Shown in pieces: positions 1 through 6,820 of a DNA stretch of 6,820 nt. Every line of letters starts with the position of its first letter. The first letter of the stretch is position 1. The DNA is from Fibrobacterota bacterium (lineage in GTDB: Bacteria; Fibrobacterota; Chitinivibrionia; Chitinivibrionales; FEN-1185): positions 58,382 to 65,201 of the forward strand of contig PLWQ01000005.1 of NCBI GenBank assembly GCA_003165595.1, in the 5' to 3' direction. The notes under the pieces were generated by a model. The model made no database searches. It had not been told where the DNA came from and was given only the letters and a program-made list of their open reading frames with translations. The position numbers were made by a program, and so were the translations under genes.

Positions 1-819
1 ACCATTGCAAGCAATTTGCCGCCAGGAGATGGACATCCCCGCATCTTTCTTATACATCACGGCAAAAACAGGGGATGCGGAGCCGCCATGGTTTCCGGAT
101 ACCGATGGTGCCTTGCAAATTCAGTCGACATAGCTGTTTCAATGGACGGCGATGGTCAGATGGACCCGGCGAACCTTCAGGCCATCATTTCACCCGTCGC
201 AATAGGGGAAACCGATTGCTGCAAGGGGAACCGACTTTTTTCCGGCGAGGCATGGAGGATTATCCCACGCGTGAGGTATCTTGGCAACAGCGTTCTTTCC
301 CTCTTGACAAAGATCGCCAGCGGATACTGGAACGTTGCAGATTCGCAATGCGGCTACCGTGCCATTTCGCGGTCGGCCCTCGAAAAACTCCCCCTCGACA
401 AGCTCTACCCGCGATTCGGCTATCCCAACCATGTTCTGGTAATGCTCAACATATTTAATCTGAGGGTGCTTGACGTTCCAGTTCGTCCCGTATATAACCA
501 GGGAGAAAAATCGAAAATCAGGTTGTACAGGGTGATCCCGGCGATCTCCATTCTTCTCTTTAAGCAATTCCTCTGGCGAATAAAGGAAAAGTACATTATT
601 CGCGATTTCCATCCGCTTGTCTTTCACTACCTGCTGTCCGCACTTCTGTTTAGCGCGGGTTTTGCGCTTTTCGTCCGTCTCGTCTGGCTGTGGATCGCGA
701 ACGGCTACGTTCCATCCATCACGGCTCTGGCGCTAGGCTTCTGTGTGATCACAGGTCTGCAGAGCGCCTTTTTCGGAATGTGGCTTGATATGGACTACAA
801 TTCACGATCACATAAATAA
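1..819 (+). CDS. Family 2 glycosyltransferase, DPM1-like, with C-terminal membrane anchor (5' end missing)
   Basis: Partial gene: frame 1 is open to the left edge and the N-terminal nucleotide-binding part lies outside the window, so the TTG at 16 is not a real start. Residues are counted from the first codon in the window. An HxKNRG-type segment is at about 20-25, the metal-binding DxD motif (DGDGQMDP) at 49-56, GNRLF at 76-80, and DSQCGYRA at 114-121. This is the pattern of GT-A enzymes that move a sugar from a nucleotide donor to polyprenyl phosphate or a similar acceptor on the cytoplasmic face. After residue 200 come two hydrophobic stretches (about 205-232 and 238-260), so the protein is membrane-anchored. 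The stop TAA at 817-819 is 3 bases before the next gene. The family is clear; the sugar and acceptor cannot be read from sequence. Confidence 0.9.
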   Translation, partial: TIASNLPPGDGHPRIFLIHHGKNRGCGAAMVSGYRWCLANSVDIAVSMDGDGQMDPANLQAIISPVAIGETDCCKGNRLFSGEAWRIIPRVRYLGNSVLSLLTKIASGYWNVADSQCGYRAISRSALEKLPLDKLYPRFGYPNHVLVMLNIFNLRVLDVPVRPVYNQGEKSKIRLYRVIPAISILLFKQFLWRIKEKYIIRDFHPLVFHYLLSALLFSAGFALFVRLVWLWIANGYVPSITALALGFCVITGLQSAFFGMWLDMDYNSRSHK

Positions 820-822
820 CTG

Positions 823-1716
823 ATGAAAAAACGCTGGCTCTTTATCCTTATCATTTTCTCTTTCGCTTTCCTCTGCGTGAGCCTCTATTCGGCGGATTAT
901 CTCAAAATTCCCGTGATTGTTTCGCCGGCATACCTGCTGGCCTCATTGGGGGCTGCGATGTGTGGATTTTTGCTCGACGCACTGGCGTTTCGAGCCCTGC
1001 TGCGGCATTCTCATCATGTGGTTCCCCTCCGGCGGATCATTGCCGCCATCGGGCTCAATTCTTTTGCGAAATATGTGCCGGGCAAGATGTGGGGCGTGGT
1101 CGGAGCAGGCATGTACCTGGCATCGCGCCAACAGAGCAGCGTTTCCGACATGTCAATGTTTTTCTTCAATGCCAACCTCATCAGCCTGTGGTGCGGATTT
1201 CTTATCGGGCTTATCGGATTGTTCTTCATCAGCGGAATCGCCCTTCTCAATGGGGTTGCCGTTTTCGGCATGCTGCTGCTCACCCTCGTACTTTTCACCC
1301 CTTTGTTCCATGTGCCCGCATCCAGGATTGCAAGTCTGGTTCTTCGACGGAGTTTTGTGCTTCCCCAATTGTCCGTTCGCCAGACACTGCGCGTGCTTCC
1401 CAGGTATATGGCCACCTGGGTCGCCGTCGGCGTCGGTTTCTATTGTCTTGCCGCTTCGCTGGAGGGCCCGGGCCGTTGCGCCGCCTGGCTGTTTGCATAT
1501 CCCCTGGCCGCGACTGCAGGCACGCTCACGTTTTTTGCTCCCGGCGGCATAGGAGTCCGGGAAGGGGCATTGGCAGGTTACTTGTCACACGCACACATGA
1601 CATTGAGCGCTGCGGTCACGGTGGCCACCGCTTCCCGGTTATGGGCCCTGGTCGTGGAGGCGTTGTATTTCGTTATCGGCTTTTTTGCGGAAAAGTCTGC
1701 GCACAGAACAACCTGA
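823..1716 (+). CDS. LPG_synthase_TM / UPF0104-family integral membrane protein (flippase-like)
   Basis: 297 residues, very hydrophobic, with about seven membrane segments (for example near 5-24, 32-58, 114-140, 145-162, 197-213, 221-239 and 265-289). Two hallmarks of the family are visible: FAKYVPGKMWG at 81-91 in the N-terminal half, and FFAPGGIGVREG at 237-248 in the C-terminal half, followed by SRLW at 271-274. The family is related to the membrane domain of MprF (lysyl-phosphatidylglycerol synthase and flippase). Stand-alone members are common in polysaccharide and glycolipid clusters, where a lipid-translocating role is suspected. There is no synthase domain here, so lysyl-PG synthesis is unlikely. 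The ATG at 823 follows the upstream stop by 3 bases and begins a Lys-Lys-Arg then hydrophobic N-terminus typical of an inner-membrane protein. No clear Shine-Dalgarno sequence is seen, so translation is probably coupled to the gene before it. Confidence 0.86.
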   Translation: MKKRWLFILIIFSFAFLCVSLYSADYLKIPVIVSPAYLLASLGAAMCGFLLDALAFRALLRHSHHVVPLRRIIAAIGLNSFAKYVPGKMWGVVGAGMYLASRQQSSVSDMSMFFFNANLISLWCGFLIGLIGLFFISGIALLNGVAVFGMLLLTLVLFTPLFHVPASRIASLVLRRSFVLPQLSVRQTLRVLPRYMATWVAVGVGFYCLAASLEGPGRCAAWLFAYPLAATAGTLTFFAPGGIGVREGALAGYLSHAHMTLSAAVTVATASRLWALVVEALYFVIGFFAEKSAHRTT

Positions 1717-1734
1717 GCGGCCGGATATTCGTTT

Positions 1735-2739
1735 ATGGAGACCGTACCACTGGACCTCGACAATGAATCGCAGTGCAGCGCATGGGATGCGTTTGTCCTG
1801 GAACATCCGGACGGAACCGTGTTTCACAGCAGTTTGTGGGCGCGCGCCATAGCGGCCGCGTATGGCGCAACAAGCCTGTGCATGGTCTTTAAAGACGGAG
1901 AAACGACAGTCGGGGTTTTTCCGCTCTTTTGCGTCAAGGACATTCGGCAGCGGGACACGCTTGTATCCATACCCTACGCGCCGTGCGGAGGTATACTTTC
2001 GTCGCCTGCATATGCCGAATCCATCCTTTCCGACGCGGGCGTGTCACGGTCGGTCCCGCGAAAAGACTCCCCTACCCTCCGTGCATACGCGGCGGCCTGC
2101 TGCACCATGGTTGTTTCGCTGCCTTCGGAGAAAGATGCGCTCTGGAGCCGCCTGCCCGACAAAGAAAGAAATCAAATCCGAAAGCCGCAGAAAGAGGGAT
2201 TGACAGTCGATATTGGACGCGACCTTCTGGACCGCTTCTATCCCTTGTATGCCCGCCGCATGCACGAGCTGGGGACCCCGCCGCATGCGTCAACGTTTTT
2301 CTCCAGCCTGCAGAACAGTTTCGGGGACTGCGCCGAATTCGTTGTGGCATATTATCGCACAAACCCGGTTGCGGCGCTTTTCGACGTGTCCTGGGGAAAT
2401 ACCCGCTACAATCTTTACGGCGCCTCCGATATCCGGTGCCGGTCGCTCTGCGCGAACGACCTTGCTTATTGGGAATCCCTGAAAAGGGCGGTTGACCAGA
2501 AGAAACAGCGGTACGATTTCGGCCGGAGCAGGCGGGATTCCGGACAATATCGCTTCAAACGGAAATGGGGAGCTCAGCCCGCGGCACTGCGCAAATACGT
2601 GTGGGCCTTCGACAAAAAATCCGGAACGTGGAACGAGCAGTCCCTCGTACCATCGTCCGGCCCAAGCAAAGTCTGGCGGAGGATTCCATTTCCGCTTGCA
2701 ACGGCGTTGGGACAGTGCATCAGGCGGTTCGTGTTCTAA
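1735..2739 (+). CDS. FemAB-like / GNAT-type acyltransferase (XrtA/PEP-CTERM-associated FemAB type)
   Basis: 334 residues, soluble, resembling FemAB-related proteins that accompany exosortase and exopolysaccharide loci. Visible features are an N-terminal segment ending in FHSSLWARAIAAAYG (30-44), the IPYAPCGG region (79-86), the basic helix ERNQIRKPQKEG (144-155), FYPLYARRMHELGTPPH (168-184), and the diagnostic C-terminal block YDFGRS at 260-265 followed by SGQYRFKRKWG at 269-279. The C-terminal tail (KVWRRIPFPLATALG, 312-326) is also typical. Relatives carry an acetyltransferase (GNAT) fold and are thought to add an amino-acid or acyl group, but the substrate is unknown. The middle (about 95-128) looks shorter than usual and lacks the usual Glu-Leu-Arg strand, so there may be an internal deletion. 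The gene starts 18 bases after the preceding stop with no strong ribosome binding site. Confidence 0.8.
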   Translation: METVPLDLDNESQCSAWDAFVLEHPDGTVFHSSLWARAIAAAYGATSLCMVFKDGETTVGVFPLFCVKDIRQRDTLVSIPYAPCGGILSSPAYAESILSDAGVSRSVPRKDSPTLRAYAAACCTMVVSLPSEKDALWSRLPDKERNQIRKPQKEGLTVDIGRDLLDRFYPLYARRMHELGTPPHASTFFSSLQNSFGDCAEFVVAYYRTNPVAALFDVSWGNTRYNLYGASDIRCRSLCANDLAYWESLKRAVDQKKQRYDFGRSRRDSGQYRFKRKWGAQPAALRKYVWAFDKKSGTWNEQSLVPSSGPSKVWRRIPFPLATALGQCIRRFVF

Positions 2740-2761
2740 CAGAATAACCGGGGCCGAATCC

Positions 2762-3688
2762 ATGCAAAACCTGTCGGACAAGAGAACGCTGCTTCTTTCA
2801 GTTGATCTTGACATGTGGTATCATTGTCGATGGGCCACCGGCGGGCCAAAATCCATGTGGCACACAACTGAATCTGCAATACAGGCACTGTATGGCGACG
2901 CGGGGCCTGCCCGGATAGAAAAGGACTTGGCTGAACTCACAGACAGAATCCTGGAACTACTACGTTCATTTGAATTCACGGCGACGTTTTTTGTGCTAGG
3001 GGAAATTGCCCGTTGCTATCCCAACGTCATAAAGCGCATAATTTCCGAGGGGCACGAAATCGCAAGCCACGGGATGCATCATGAAGACGCATCCCGCCTT
3101 GACGACGCGGGACTCCGCGCATCGGTCGGAGATTCCAAGAAAATTCTGGAGGACATTTCCGGGCAACCGGTGCAAGGTTTTCGATATCCAAATCTGGTGT
3201 TCACAAAAAGGGAACTGGCTGCTCTTGTGGACCACGGTTTCCGGTATGACTCGTCAACCTGTTTTTCCCGTCGAATGTTTGGAAAGTTTGGCGTAAAGGA
3301 TCGAATGATACAAAACCCCTATCACCCCGATATCGACCGTCCCTTTTGTCAGGGTGAATCTGAAATCTGGGAATTCCCAATTCCGGTTTTTCCTGTGCTT
3401 CGTCTTCCAGCAGGATCGGGAATTGCAACGAGGCTCATGGGTGTTTCCTGGAGCAAGTTTGCGCTCGACGCAGCACTCAGGACAGGAGACACGCTGTACT
3501 ATTTTCATCCATTCGATTTGCATAGGGTCAAAGGCCTCGGCAGGACTTCGCTCAACGCGTATTTCTTTCTGCAAAATGCCGGGGCGCCGTTTGAGCGGCA
3601 ATTAACAAGACTATTTCGGTACTATGCAAAACGGGGCAACGTCATGTGCATTCGCGACTGGTTACGCGATCGCGAGAGGAGTTCCTGA
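2762..3688 (+). CDS. Polysaccharide deacetylase (NodB homology, carbohydrate esterase 4 type)
   Basis: 308 residues. The reading frame is open further upstream, but that stretch overlaps the FemAB-like gene; the ATG at 2762, 22 bases after its stop, puts the first NodB motif near the N-terminus. The motifs appear in order: SVDLDMWYH at 13-21 (Asp15 as likely base, Asp17 as likely metal ligand, in the place of the FDVEDW motif of exopolysaccharide-linked deacetylases), TATFFVLGEIA at 73-83, SHGMHH at 102-107 (His103 and His107 in HxxxH, the metal ligands), GFRYPN at 139-144, and YYFHPFDLH at 246-254. All expected catalytic positions are present, so the enzyme should be active on an N- or O-acetylated glycan. 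No signal peptide is visible, so it may act in the cytoplasm on a lipid-linked precursor. The stop overlaps the next start by one base (TGATG). Confidence 0.88.
   Translation: MQNLSDKRTLLLSVDLDMWYHCRWATGGPKSMWHTTESAIQALYGDAGPARIEKDLAELTDRILELLRSFEFTATFFVLGEIARCYPNVIKRIISEGHEIASHGMHHEDASRLDDAGLRASVGDSKKILEDISGQPVQGFRYPNLVFTKRELAALVDHGFRYDSSTCFSRRMFGKFGVKDRMIQNPYHPDIDRPFCQGESEIWEFPIPVFPVLRLPAGSGIATRLMGVSWSKFALDAALRTGDTLYYFHPFDLHRVKGLGRTSLNAYFFLQNAGAPFERQLTRLFRYYAKRGNVMCIRDWLRDRERSS
3677..3681 (+). promoter_or_regulatory. Shine-Dalgarno sequence deciding the methyltransferase start at 3688
   Basis: AGGAG lies 6 bases before the ATG at 3688. It is one of the two good ribosome binding sites in the window and supports this start over the ATG at 3646, which would overlap the deacetylase gene by 14 codons. 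Confidence 0.7.
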
Positions 3689-4614
3689 TGGGAAACGTTC
3701 AGGACGCTCTTTCCCAAAACGACCTTAGCGCTCAACGGCAGGAACGAGACTGCATGACCAGGGAAGACAATTCATCGCAGGATTTATACGAAGACTTGGT
3801 CTCACGCTGGAGGACCGATTACCGCGCCAATGGGCATACCTGTTTAGGAGTTCGGGCTCACCGAACCTTGTACCGGCATATGCTGACCAGTCTCATTCCC
3901 CAGGACCTCCGCAGCAAGCCAATCACGTTTCTCGACAGCGCCTGTGGCAACGGCTACCTTGCCCCGCTCTTTCGAAATCATCTTACCATTAAAAGACTTG
4001 ACGGGGTCGACTTGAACGGACAGGCTCTTTCCATTGCCAGTTCTTGTTTCGGGTATACAAACGTGCAGCGAGCGAGCGTGCTGGATCTTGATAAAACCTT
4101 TCATGGTACCTACGACATCGTTAATAACTGCGACATGTTCTTCCACATCGATCCGAAGGACCGAGGCAGGTTTTGGAAAGCGCATTGCGATAAGATCTCC
4201 CGTGGCGGCAGAATGCTGTGCGTTGTTCCGAACGGTGAATCGATGTACCGTCTTGTCAGACCGCTTAGACTCGGCTTTTCTTTTGCAATAAGCGATATAA
4301 TCGACGATATCGACGCGTTGCCGGGTGTGGAAATAGAATCTCTTGCGGGTGTTACGTTGGTGTGCGCAAAGATCGTCCCTTTCCCCCGAGTCATGAGGTC
4401 CCCAGTGAAGAACCTCGCAGCAAACTGCGAGGTATCTTCCATCCCTAGGGAAGAAGAATTTTGTAGTCGTTTGCTAAGCCCGAAGCAAGCTTCGGGGACC
4501 GCGATTACAACCGGATGTATGCCACAGCGAGCAGCCTGCAATCCGCAAACTTTGGGATTGAAACTTTTCATGTCATTCGTAATTGGCATAGTGGTAAAAC
4601 CTCATGAGGACTGA
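3688..4614 (+). CDS. Class I SAM-dependent methyltransferase with C-terminus replaced by a repeat insertion
   Basis: 308 residues as it now reads. The Rossmann-fold motifs are present: FLDSACGNGY (81-90, SAM-binding motif I), GVDLN (106-110, acidic end of strand 2), and DIVNNCDMFFHI (143-154, motif near the active site), followed by RGGRMLCVVPN (172-182). The methyl acceptor is unknown, though the context suggests a sugar or lipid-linked glycan. Residues 1-236 look native. Residues 237-271 come from a 104-base repeat element (4397-4500), and residues 272-308 are an out-of-frame reading of the original 3' end. Removing the element gives a 271-residue protein ending at the TGA at 4605-4607. The catalytic core is intact, but the final strand and tail are lost, so activity is uncertain and the gene may be a recent pseudogene. 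The start at 3688 is supported by AGGAG at 3677-3681. Confidence 0.82.
   Translation: MGNVQDALSQNDLSAQRQERDCMTREDNSSQDLYEDLVSRWRTDYRANGHTCLGVRAHRTLYRHMLTSLIPQDLRSKPITFLDSACGNGYLAPLFRNHLTIKRLDGVDLNGQALSIASSCFGYTNVQRASVLDLDKTFHGTYDIVNNCDMFFHIDPKDRGRFWKAHCDKISRGGRMLCVVPNGESMYRLVRPLRLGFSFAISDIIDDIDALPGVEIESLAGVTLVCAKIVPFPRVMRSPVKNLAANCEVSSIPREEEFCSRLLSPKQASGTAITTGCMPQRAACNPQTLGLKLFMSFVIGIVVKPHED
4404..4431 (+). repeat. Dispersed repeat, copy 1
   Basis: These 28 bases match 6793-6820 in the same orientation at 27 of 28 positions; the single difference is A at 4424 against G at 6813. The match stops only because the window ends, so the shared repeat may be longer. The left border of similarity is sharp: GGTCCCC precedes copy 1 but not copy 2. 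Confidence 0.9.
4412..4433. repeat. Left hairpin of the element
   Basis: ACCTCGCAG pairs with CTGCGAGGT across a CAAA loop, a 9-bp stem. In the copy at the window end the G at 6813 allows one more C-G pair, leaving a two-base AA loop, so copy 1 carries a decayed position at 4424. There is no following T-run, so this is not an intrinsic terminator. Confidence 0.85.
4479..4496. repeat. Right hairpin of the element
   Basis: CCCGAAGC pairs perfectly with GCTTCGGG around an AA loop (8-bp stem). It has the same 18-base architecture as the left hairpin core, differing by two compensated base pairs. No T-tract follows. Confidence 0.85.
4501..4607 (+). pseudogene. Displaced original 3' end of the methyltransferase gene
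   Basis: Read in the frame with GAT at 4503-4505, this stretch encodes DYNRMYATASS, then LQSANFGIETFHVIRNW and a short tail, stopping at TGA 4605-4607. It looks like a normal protein C-terminus, unlike the Cys- and Pro-rich sequence made by the frame now in use. It is in frame with residues 1-236 only if the element at 4397-4500 is removed. The TGA overlaps the ATG at 4604 as ATGA, the same kind of junction seen at 5263-5266. Confidence 0.72.
4606..4610 (+). promoter_or_regulatory. Shine-Dalgarno sequence for the second methyltransferase
   Basis: GAGGA lies 8 bases before the ATG at 4619 and favours that start. The alternative ATG at 4604 has no good ribosome binding site but makes an ATGA overlap with the original stop of the preceding gene. 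Confidence 0.5.
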
Positions 4615-4618
4615 TGGA

Positions 4619-5266
4619 ATGATTGCATCGAATGCCCGGTGCCCAGACAAGACGCCTTCCTTCGAACGGGACGAGGTGTACATAACGAGGAATCCGCTTA
4701 TCCGGTTTCTTGCACGGAGATTTCGGGCAACCATGGGGAGTGTGCTCACCTCCCATCACGCATCGGATCTCTCGGGCCTGGATGCGGGATGCGGCGAAGG
4801 TATGCAGATGCATTTACTTCACAGACAAGGGTATATCGACCGCATGGTTGGCATCGATTACGACGGGCCAAAGATCCACTATGCTGCGCATATGCACAAC
4901 CGATTCACCTATTCCATCGCAAATCTGAATGCACTGAATTTCAAGAATGGAGTCTTTGACTACGTGATCGCCTCGGAAGTCCTCGAACATCTGGCCAGTC
5001 CCGACAAGGCCATGGAAGAGCTTGTCCGAGTTGCAAAGCCGAAGGCATTCTTCGTGCTTTCCGTGCCGCTTGAACCATTGTTCCGGATCGGCAACGTGTT
5101 GTGTGGAAGATACGTCGATCGCCTGGGGAGAACTCCCGCGCACTGCAACTTCTGGACACGGAGAAAATTCAGGGCGTTTGTCGAACCCTATTTGACCGTC
5201 GAACATCATTTCGGCCTGGCCACGGTTCCCTGGCAGATTCTAACCGGAACCGTGAAACCTGCATGA
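4619..5266 (+). CDS. Class I SAM-dependent methyltransferase (Methyltransf_11 type)
   Basis: 215 residues from the ATG at 4619; five more if translation begins at 4604. The SAM-binding motif I LDAGCGEG is at 54-61, GIDYD (ribose-binding acidic position) at 78-82, and FDYVIASEVLEHL, the typical motif before the conserved EHL, at 113-125, followed by the RVAKPKAFFVLSVP strand at 137-150. All core elements are present, so the enzyme should be functional. No membrane segment is seen. It lies between another methyltransferase and a membrane glycosyltransferase, so O- or N-methylation of a sugar or of a lipid-linked glycan intermediate is the likeliest role; quinone or other small-molecule methylation cannot be excluded from sequence alone. 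It overlaps the next gene by four bases (ATGA), a sign of translational coupling. It shows no obvious similarity to the preceding methyltransferase beyond the shared fold motifs. Confidence 0.85.
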   Translation: MIASNARCPDKTPSFERDEVYITRNPLIRFLARRFRATMGSVLTSHHASDLSGLDAGCGEGMQMHLLHRQGYIDRMVGIDYDGPKIHYAAHMHNRFTYSIANLNALNFKNGVFDYVIASEVLEHLASPDKAMEELVRVAKPKAFFVLSVPLEPLFRIGNVLCGRYVDRLGRTPAHCNFWTRRKFRAFVEPYLTVEHHFGLATVPWQILTGTVKPA

Positions 5267-6820
5267 AAGCATTTCTTCATTGGTTCTCCAGCCTTTATTC
5301 CGGGCAGAGGCGTTTTGCACTCCCCTGCCTTATCCTCGCGGCGTGGAGCAGTCTATTTATCTCGCTTGATTTTTCCACGGATATCCCCTACAGGCACGAC
5401 GACGCAAATTACCTGGCGCTTGCAAAAAGCTTTTCACAAGGCTCGGGATACTTGAACATCGCGCTTCCCTATTCCGAAAGCATGACAACTGACCCGTCCG
5501 CATTTCCGCTCCTTCTTACCATCTACTGGCGATTCATTTCTCCGCATGTTGTGGTCCTCAAAATCTTACTTGCGCTGCTTCTTGTTTCCGGCGTCTTGCT
5601 CAGTTATTTGTGGCTTCTGCAAATCGTTTTGCCGACAGAGGCGTTCTTGATCACTCTGGCATTTTCTTCGATGCCAATGTTCGTTTTGATAGGGAATTCA
5701 ATCCTTTCGGAGATACTCTTTGTCCCTGTCCTGTATGCCGGCTTCTTCCTTGGGGGCACGGTGTACCGGGGCAATTCCTCAAAATCAATCGGATGGCTTG
5801 CGCTTCTCTGTTTTGTGCTGCTGGCGCGGATCCGCGTTGTGGGCCTTTGTTTCTTTGGCGTCCACATTGTGTTCCTCTTTTGGAAAAAGGACAGAATCAA
5901 GGCATGCTCCGGTATCATCCTCCTCGCCCTGTGGATATTCCTGGAGCGCCTCTGCGTGGTCGCACGAGCAGCGAACGACGGCTATGCCCATGCGTTTATC
6001 CACAACTTCCCCCTGGTCTCAAACACAGGCGCGGCAATTTCTCTGCTGGTTCACACCTACCGCCACAACATCTGGTCATTCGCGGGTTCAATGTATGCAA
6101 ACATCCTTTTCCCCTGGTTCTACTCGTTTGCCCCAATGAACCCCGTCAAACGCCTCGTCGTGTTGTCGCTTTTTGTCAATGGTTGCGTCGGATTATTTCT
6201 CCTGTGGAAGAACAAACCGTGGATGCGGCCCATTCTTGCCGCCACGATTCTTTCTCTGATCCCGGTGTTCAGCTGGACAAGAACAGGGACTATTTTCCGG
6301 TATCTCTTTCCATTCTTTCCACTTCTGGCTCTCGTTTTCGTGGTTCCCATTCTGGAACTCGTCCCCAAGCGCCTTTCACGGCCCGCCGGGTCAATGCCGC
6401 TTCTTTTTCTCGCTTGCATGGTGGGAAACCAGGCCATTGCCTCGCTCGGCACAGGAACGTTCGATCCGTACCTGTATGGCAGGAAAGAATTCAAGTTAGT
6501 ACACGATTTCGTCAACGGTCAGCAACTGCGGCCCGACATAATCTTGTCGGAGCACAATTTCTACACCTATCTCACGACAGGTGTCTACTCGCTGGACGAA
6601 TCATCTTTTGAAACGGCCAGGGCCTGTTCCTCGCTGACAACAGCCCACGCCATCTGGGGGATTTCAGAACGGAACCGGACCTGGTCGCGGGCAGTCGTGC
6701 CGTGCGGTGCGCTGGCGCTGGTCCAGGATTCCGTGCCGCTGTACAGGTCGGGACCCTGGGAACTATGTGTAGTACGGTGCCGGAGCACGTCGAGTGAAGA
6801 ACCTCGCAGCAAGCTGCGAG
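5263..6820 (+). CDS. GT39/ArnT-like (GT-C fold) membrane glycosyltransferase, 3' end beyond window
   Basis: Frame 1 is open from the ATG at 5263 to the right edge with no stop (519 codons). Residues 17-36 form the first membrane segment. It is followed by the extracytoplasmic loop motif RHDDANYLALAKSFSQGSGY (44-63), whose acidic pair is the usual catalytic and metal-binding site of polyprenyl-phosphate-dependent GT-C enzymes (the PMT/RgtA-D-like group). Many hydrophobic segments follow, with SILSE at 146-150, an Arg-rich turn near 189-191 and FRYLFPFFPLLA at 345-356, which resembles the RYxxPxxP segment of the family. From about 385 the protein is mostly soluble, as in ArnT-like enzymes. It would transfer a sugar from a lipid carrier to an acceptor outside the inner membrane. 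The last nine codons (511-519) lie in the dispersed repeat. The start overlaps the previous stop as ATGA. Confidence 0.85.
   Translation, partial: MKAFLHWFSSLYSGQRRFALPCLILAAWSSLFISLDFSTDIPYRHDDANYLALAKSFSQGSGYLNIALPYSESMTTDPSAFPLLLTIYWRFISPHVVVLKILLALLLVSGVLLSYLWLLQIVLPTEAFLITLAFSSMPMFVLIGNSILSEILFVPVLYAGFFLGGTVYRGNSSKSIGWLALLCFVLLARIRVVGLCFFGVHIVFLFWKKDRIKACSGIILLALWIFLERLCVVARAANDGYAHAFIHNFPLVSNTGAAISLLVHTYRHNIWSFAGSMYANILFPWFYSFAPMNPVKRLVVLSLFVNGCVGLFLLWKNKPWMRPILAATILSLIPVFSWTRTGTIFRYLFPFFPLLALVFVVPILELVPKRLSRPAGSMPLLFLACMVGNQAIASLGTGTFDPYLYGRKEFKLVHDFVNGQQLRPDIILSEHNFYTYLTTGVYSLDESSFETARACSSLTTAHAIWGISERNRTWSRAVVPCGALALVQDSVPLYRSGPWELCVVRCRSTSSEEPRSKLR
6793..6820 (+). repeat. Dispersed repeat, copy 2 (cut by window end)
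   Basis: 27 of 28 bases match 4404-4431 in the same orientation. The core CTCGCAGCAAGCTGCGAG (6803-6820) is a perfect 8-bp stem with an AA loop. It lies in the last codons of the GT39-like gene, read in a different frame from copy 1. The upstream GGTCCCC of copy 1 is absent here. Confidence 0.88.

Follow-up and report, generated by a model that had tools for sequence, protein, structure and literature searches.

PATEs, described from Haloquadratum walsbyi, are transposase-free elements related to the ends of IS605-type elements (PMC3119063). In IS608, insertion takes place 3' of a tetranucleotide that is retained to the left of the element. A guide at the foot of a hairpin, on its 5' side, pairs with this tetranucleotide, and a change in the guide retargets insertion (PMC5934647). 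GTAG REPs, BIMEs and REPINs with their RAYTs are hairpin repeats with many intergenic copies, forming mosaics near the 3' ends of genes and sometimes lying in open reading frames (PMC3733652, PMC6006769, PMC8266576). The BOX repeat of Streptococcus pneumoniae is a modular composite with fixed end modules, variable middle modules, about 100 copies and predicted folds (PMC3049150). The repeat described here, at positions 4404-4561 in the 3' end of a methyltransferase gene, resembles the last two groups in these same respects. It is probably a modular, transposase-less, PATE-like element with IS200/IS605-type ends that acts on the - strand, a reading to which we give a probability of roughly 0.6.

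The window, meaning the whole stretch of 6,820 nucleotides that was analysed (positions 1-6820), corresponds to positions 58382-65201 of contig C3 in a draft genome of 5.39 Mb (42 contigs). Its genes encode a glycosyltransferase, an LPG-synthase-like membrane protein, a FemAB/GNAT protein, a polysaccharide deacetylase and two methyltransferases, and together they look like a surface polysaccharide cluster. The features of the window that concern the repeat are as follows.

3688-4614, + strand: methyltransferase open reading frame in its present form, 308 aa, starting at ATG 3688
4404-4556, - strand (putative transferred strand): element body of 153 bp under an IS200/IS605-like model; start conserved in 53 copies, cut site predicted
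4412-4433, no strand assigned: hairpin 1 (ACCTCGCAG/CTGCGAGGT), with compensatory changes in its arms
4425-4486, limits approximate, no strand assigned: module A, from copies with and without it
4469-4474, no strand assigned: outer helix around hairpin 3, 5' arm GTTTGC, pairing with 4545-4550
4479-4496, no strand assigned: hairpin 3 (CCCGAAGC/GCTTCGGG), with compensatory changes in its arms
4499-4540, no strand assigned: module C, an optional 42 bp that other copies either carry or lack at the point between GGGGA and AT[X]CGC
4540-4543, - strand: proposed guide tetranucleotide, AATC on the + strand and GATT on the - strand; contains base X (4543), from the X-Y covariation
4545-4550, no strand assigned: outer helix around hairpin 3, 3' arm GCAAAC, pairing with 4469-4474
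4557-4561, - strand: terminal pentamer and proposed retained target, ATTGA on the + strand and TCAAT on the - strand; its A, T, T and final A occur in 50-53 of 53 copies
4560, no strand assigned: base Y, which covaries with base X (4543)
6793-6820, no strand assigned: beginning of a truncated second copy; the window stops here, where the contig has an NN stretch

This second copy has its start within the 3' end of an open reading frame that runs from 5263 into the repeat without meeting a stop.

The repeat is abundant in its own genome. The segment 4397-4500, which folds far better than its shuffles (as DNA, z -5.7), has at least 40 scored matches at 81-100% identity among 110 candidates, in keeping with the multi-copy element that an earlier note on this DNA had implied. 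The 15-mer GAAGAACCTCGCAGC has at least 102 matches with two mismatches or fewer, against 10 for a reversed control, and a 16-mer from the 3' end has at least 58, against 2 for its control. The family perhaps numbers of the order of 60-110 copies in this genome. Fifty-three copies have both ends. They share A[G/T]TGAAG on one side and GATT[C/G]A on the other, and the bases outside these motifs are unconserved; at the 5' end, 46 of 53 carry the first A, and the T, G and A further on in the motif occur in 52, 50 and 52, whereas the final A of the 3' end occurs in 50 of 53. Read together with their flanks, the copies start with AGTGAAG or ATTGAAG and end with GGGATT[C/G]A. The window copy thus extends from 4404 to about 4561 and is a hairpin-rich unit of approximately 155 bp.

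The family is a mosaic of a start, modules A, B and C, and an end, with two fixed ends and a unit length of 110-250 bp. Module A (about 66 bp) spans hairpin 1 to hairpin 3, the optional module B (48 bp) is found in the loop of either hairpin, and the optional 42-bp module C is located between hairpin 3 and the 3' end. Among the 53 copies, whose composition is uncertain where they contain NN, 16 have A alone, seven B-C, five B, five B-A, four C, three A-C, three A-B, three A-B-C, three none of the modules and four other arrangements; the window copy is A-C. The hairpin whose loop holds module B can be hairpin 1, hairpin 3 or a hybrid with one arm from each (L085, L092, L110, L114, L115), which recalls the small mobile repeats that insert into PATE palindromes (PMC3119063). 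Most copies are intergenic, often just 3' of gene ends, and 18 of the 53 are entered by an open frame of at least 150 aa, some of these frames being perhaps spurious. NN stretches lie within many copies (L083, L084, L088, L104, L106, L108, L111, L114, L119, L122, L134). They are apparently assembly gaps at the repeat family, and contig joins that run via the repeat need caution.

Copies that lack modules B and C can be aligned across four genera. In this alignment 90.9% of the cells in three helices are paired, and 37 cells are doubly changed, where shuffles give 10.9 and slid versions of the helices no more than 13; the helices were chosen partly from the same sequences, so the shuffle comparison favours them. 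When 167 genomes of the phylum are searched with a covariance model, 14 contain the family (E<=0.01), and five of these, from two families of one order, give strong matches. The exact repeat pattern had no match in the genome collection, nor did the repeat match Rfam. A simpler repeat, AATGAACTACCCCGAAGCAAGCTTCGGGGAATTAGACC, occurs in a genome of the same order (G010; L050, L056, L060) with the same hairpin core, and is possibly a relative of the minimal element.

Evidence on how the repeat may select its sites, and the main support for the PATE-like reading, comes from bases X and Y, which were compared in 70 3' ends, a few doubtful matches among them. Where X is G, Y is C in 32 cases and G in three; where X is C, Y is G in 13 cases, C in three, and A or T in two. 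Fisher's test on the four G/C cells gives 5.2e-7. Tandem junctions account for two of the three G-G cases; when both are left out, the cells become 32, 1, 3 and 13 and the test gives 2.8e-8. As the two columns were picked after inspection of the data, and from related copies, these p-values are descriptive. Both combinations of X and Y are present in both 3'-end subfamilies, and with or without module C. Y is informative with respect to X (z 9.0), the next-best column for Y reaching 2.8. Plain subfamily descent is therefore disfavoured, since Y is linked to X and hardly to other columns, although X itself is linked to several. In the tandem copies L041, L042 and L168, the G at Y is supplied by the TCAAT end of the neighbour, whatever their own X. 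No comparable covariation was seen at the opposite end of the element. The guide differs in a class of copies with GGGGTTAGCAAAC, and in module C copies, including that of the window, the proposed guide lies 42 bp away from hairpin 3, a weak point of the guide model.

Compared with PATEs, the repeat is likewise too short to encode a transposase and without a target duplication (in the 53 copies here) (PMC3119063). It also has near-terminal palindromes, here hairpins 1 and 3 with their compensatory changes; a well-conserved terminal oligonucleotide (in PATEs the probable targeting sequence), here TSAAT, which covaries with the proposed guide base and may have that role; and a greater end-to-palindrome distance on the 5' side than on the other (17 against 9 nt in the basic form). 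Unlike PATEs, the repeat is bacterial, is a modular A/B/C mosaic, and shows natural covariation of the proposed guide and target bases. PATEs are free of terminal inverted repeats; here there is a short terminal inversion, TTGAA/TTCAA (TGAAG/TGAAT, imperfect). No parental IS605-type element was found: the Y1_Tnp genes of six genomes had no copies of the repeat nearby, and TnpB had no match in five, hence the label 'PATE-like' rather than PATE.

The proposed retained short sequence beside the left end, the proposed guide at the foot of a hairpin and the missing duplication are shared with IS608 and the IS200/IS605 group. The repeat differs in having neither tnpA nor tnpB, in its putative target, which is TSAAT instead of the TTAC of IS608, and in the displacement of the guide from the hairpin in module C copies. 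In a same-genus relative (G001; L055, L059, L063), the right end on the - strand reads GAAT-hairpin-TTCTTCAAT, with the same letters as the right guide (GAAT) and the right cleavage site (TCAA) of IS608. The nearest modular analogue is BOX. It leaves target duplications (PMC3049150), whereas the repeat does not, and the middle modules of the repeat are single, located in hairpin loops or beside hairpin 3, and not in tandem arrays like boxB.

Of the other explanations, a family of extragenic palindromes of the REP/BIME type, in which hairpins 1 and 3 would be the REPs and a RAYT (TnpAREP) would have spread them, is unlikely, even if it has most in its favour. Many copies are intergenic and sit just past the 3' ends of genes, their composition is a mosaic, and the genome has two Y1_Tnp genes; REPs, too, often adjoin 3' ends, where they may supply stop codons or sit inside open reading frames (PMC3733652). 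Against this, GTAG is unconserved, preceding the hairpin-3 region in six of 29 scorable sites, while ATAG does so in 15 of 29, and what recurs is the whole unit with two defined ends and not single REPs. Furthermore, no copy is near a Y1_Tnp gene in six draft genomes (this one and five relatives), and no RAYT gene flanked by repeats was found in them, which speaks against the RAYT mobilisation suggested by the earlier note. REP-type repeats in Fibrobacterota were not found in the open literature, which says little. One of the two Y1_Tnp genes, for a 151-aa transposase (L138, 1000-2450), is surrounded by a hairpin repeat of another kind, present there in many copies (AACCCCAACGGGGTTCGATAT and its relatives), an arrangement that resembles a REPtron-like one described for another TnpA class (PMC6006769). 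Less likely again is a once-mobile repeat that now works as an RNA element at gene ends, in mRNA stability or termination, with X and Y as an internal RNA base pair. The helices kept by compensatory changes and the intergenic copies near 3' ends would suit it, yet tandem copies break the X-Y pair, as expected if Y is flank, and a terminator scan gave one terminator-like match against 2.2 expected by chance. Insertion in a coding sequence argues for movement, and the wide mosaic variation also speaks against an RNA element. A MITE moved by a DDE transposase, which the terminal TTGAA...TTCAA could suggest, is improbable: it would account for the imperfect terminal inversion and for the missing coding region, but no target duplication of 2-8 bp rose above re-paired controls in the 53 copies, and long subterminal hairpins stand in place of long terminal repeats. 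No autonomous element was noticed, on an unsystematic look. The earlier note had described the element as non-autonomous and free of target duplication, and had preferred a single-strand, IS200-type mechanism to a DDE transposase; both points agree with the present results, the second through the X-Y covariation.

Two further alternatives concern the locus itself. The assembler may have misjoined unrelated flanks via the repeat, so that no gene is interrupted. Its struggle with the family is visible in the NN stretches of many copies and in the NN at which the window ends, but the window copy is short and without N, and the genes on both sides are co-directional and apparently part of one polysaccharide cluster, which makes a misjoin quite improbable. 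The other alternative, put forward by the earlier note, is an element of 104 bp (4397-4500) bordered by inverted repeats, the exact removal of which would restore a methyltransferase of 271 residues ending in ...DYNRMYATASS...ETFHVIRNW. The perfect 7-bp arms do exist, GGTCCCC at 4397-4403 and GGGGACC at 4494-4500, and the frame arithmetic is correct, since 104 is 2 mod 3 and 72 residues follow residue 236 in the 308-aa frame. The limits, in contrast, do not hold. Other copies match positions of about 8-102 of this segment and run on beyond 4500; GGTCCCC is flank and absent from them; and GGGGACC is internal, a hairpin arm being followed there by one A and by the two bases that open module C. 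Because 4501-4562 alone has at least 44 matches in the genome, DYNRMYATASSLQSANFGI, which had been read as the restored gene, is repeat sequence, namely module C and the 3' end of the repeat. The junction residues of the 271-residue protein derive from the repeat, and DYNRMYATASS is encoded by module C in the frame used by the earlier note. This rules out the 104-bp element, which has virtually no chance of being correct. The case cautions that short inverted arms can pass for element ends when the length between them happens to restore a frame, and that a modular repeat can provide plausible-looking gene residues.

That a mobile repeat was inserted at the 3' end of the methyltransferase gene is well supported. 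The frame matches Methyltransf_25 (28.8 bits, cut-off 27) and Methyltransf_11 (26.2 bits, cut-off 21.2), so the gene encodes a class I SAM methyltransferase domain by the Pfam cut-offs. These matches lie entirely upstream and end well 5' of the element, and the methyltransferase core is therefore unaffected. There is no in-frame stop ahead of 4404, which places the element within the coding sequence unless a stop was lost, and the frame stays open through it: residues 1-238 are encoded 5' of the element, about 51 residues by the repeat, and then KLFMSFVIGIVVKPHED follows. In module C of the window copy, CGA takes the place of a TGA that is present in 18 of 20 scorable copies, and it is for this reason that the frame reaches the TGA at 4612-4614. 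The 'broken' methyltransferase of the earlier note is thus correct as to an element in coding sequence; a break is unproven, as the domain is intact and the frame open, and the insertion may be in-frame.

The original C-terminus is a predicted one. Removal of 4404-4561 (158 bp) would give ...PRVMRSPTFHVIRNWHSGKTS in the TFHVIRNW frame, the flank GGTCCCC being joined to AACTTTTC. Removal of 4404-4556 (153 bp), with ATTGA kept, would give ...PRVMRSPLKLFMSFVIGIVVKPHED in the present frame and join GGTCCCC to ATTGAAACTTTTC; PRVMRSPLKLFMSFVIGIVVKPHED was read from the sequence, and the translation was run on the equivalent loss of 4409-4561. Codon usage is worse in the TFHVIRNW frame favoured by the earlier note (-3.4 bits) than in the present frame (+0.87 bits), though neither score decides, as the ranges for in-frame and out-of-frame windows overlap: -3.4 falls below the 5% point of in-frame windows and +0.87 lies inside both ranges. 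The frame after removal depends on the ends of the element, and only an empty site could fix it; none was found in relatives via a neighbouring gene. Close homologues for checking the C-terminus were found neither in the genome collection nor in the 167 genomes of the phylum, and distant ones, at 20-31% identity to the core only, are uninformative there. No solved structure matched the methyltransferase by sequence. AlphaFold2 was uninformative from a single sequence (pLDDT 34), and with a seven-row alignment it gave pLDDT 70-90 for the core and 22-27 for the repeat-encoded part; a strand modelled for residues 297-303 of the present frame is possibly an artefact of the end alignment and was not counted.

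Under the preferred reading of a PATE-like element, for which we infer the enzyme class, the strand and the cut sites, the basic form on the - strand would consist of TSAAT (S = C or G), CCCAAAGTTTGCG, the guide [C/G]ATT adjoining hairpin 3 at its foot, then the interior and hairpin 1, and finally TTCAAT or TTCACT as the terminus (TTCTTCA[A/C]T). Acting in trans, a Y1 (HUH) transposase would cleave single-stranded DNA on the 3' side of TSAAT, which would be recognised by base pairing with the guide. The pentamer would be retained and insertion would proceed without a target duplication. For the window copy, this would amount to a 153-bp insertion that kept the frame; of the 308 residues of the resulting protein, 51, close to the C-terminus, would be encoded by the repeat.

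It is tempting to speculate, at somewhat less than even odds, that two or more natural guide alleles coexist in one genome and that each is mostly found next to the target that matches it (X=G with TGAAT and X=C with TCAAT, on the - strand). This would be a natural code of DNA guides and targets, with one change in the guide sufficing for retargeting, in which the ends of one element can be targets for the next copy. If true, the family would be a natural record of guide-directed single-strand transposition, with dozens of copies in one genome and two guide alleles with their matching targets, and retargeting, so far shown by engineered IS608, would become open to study in evolution.
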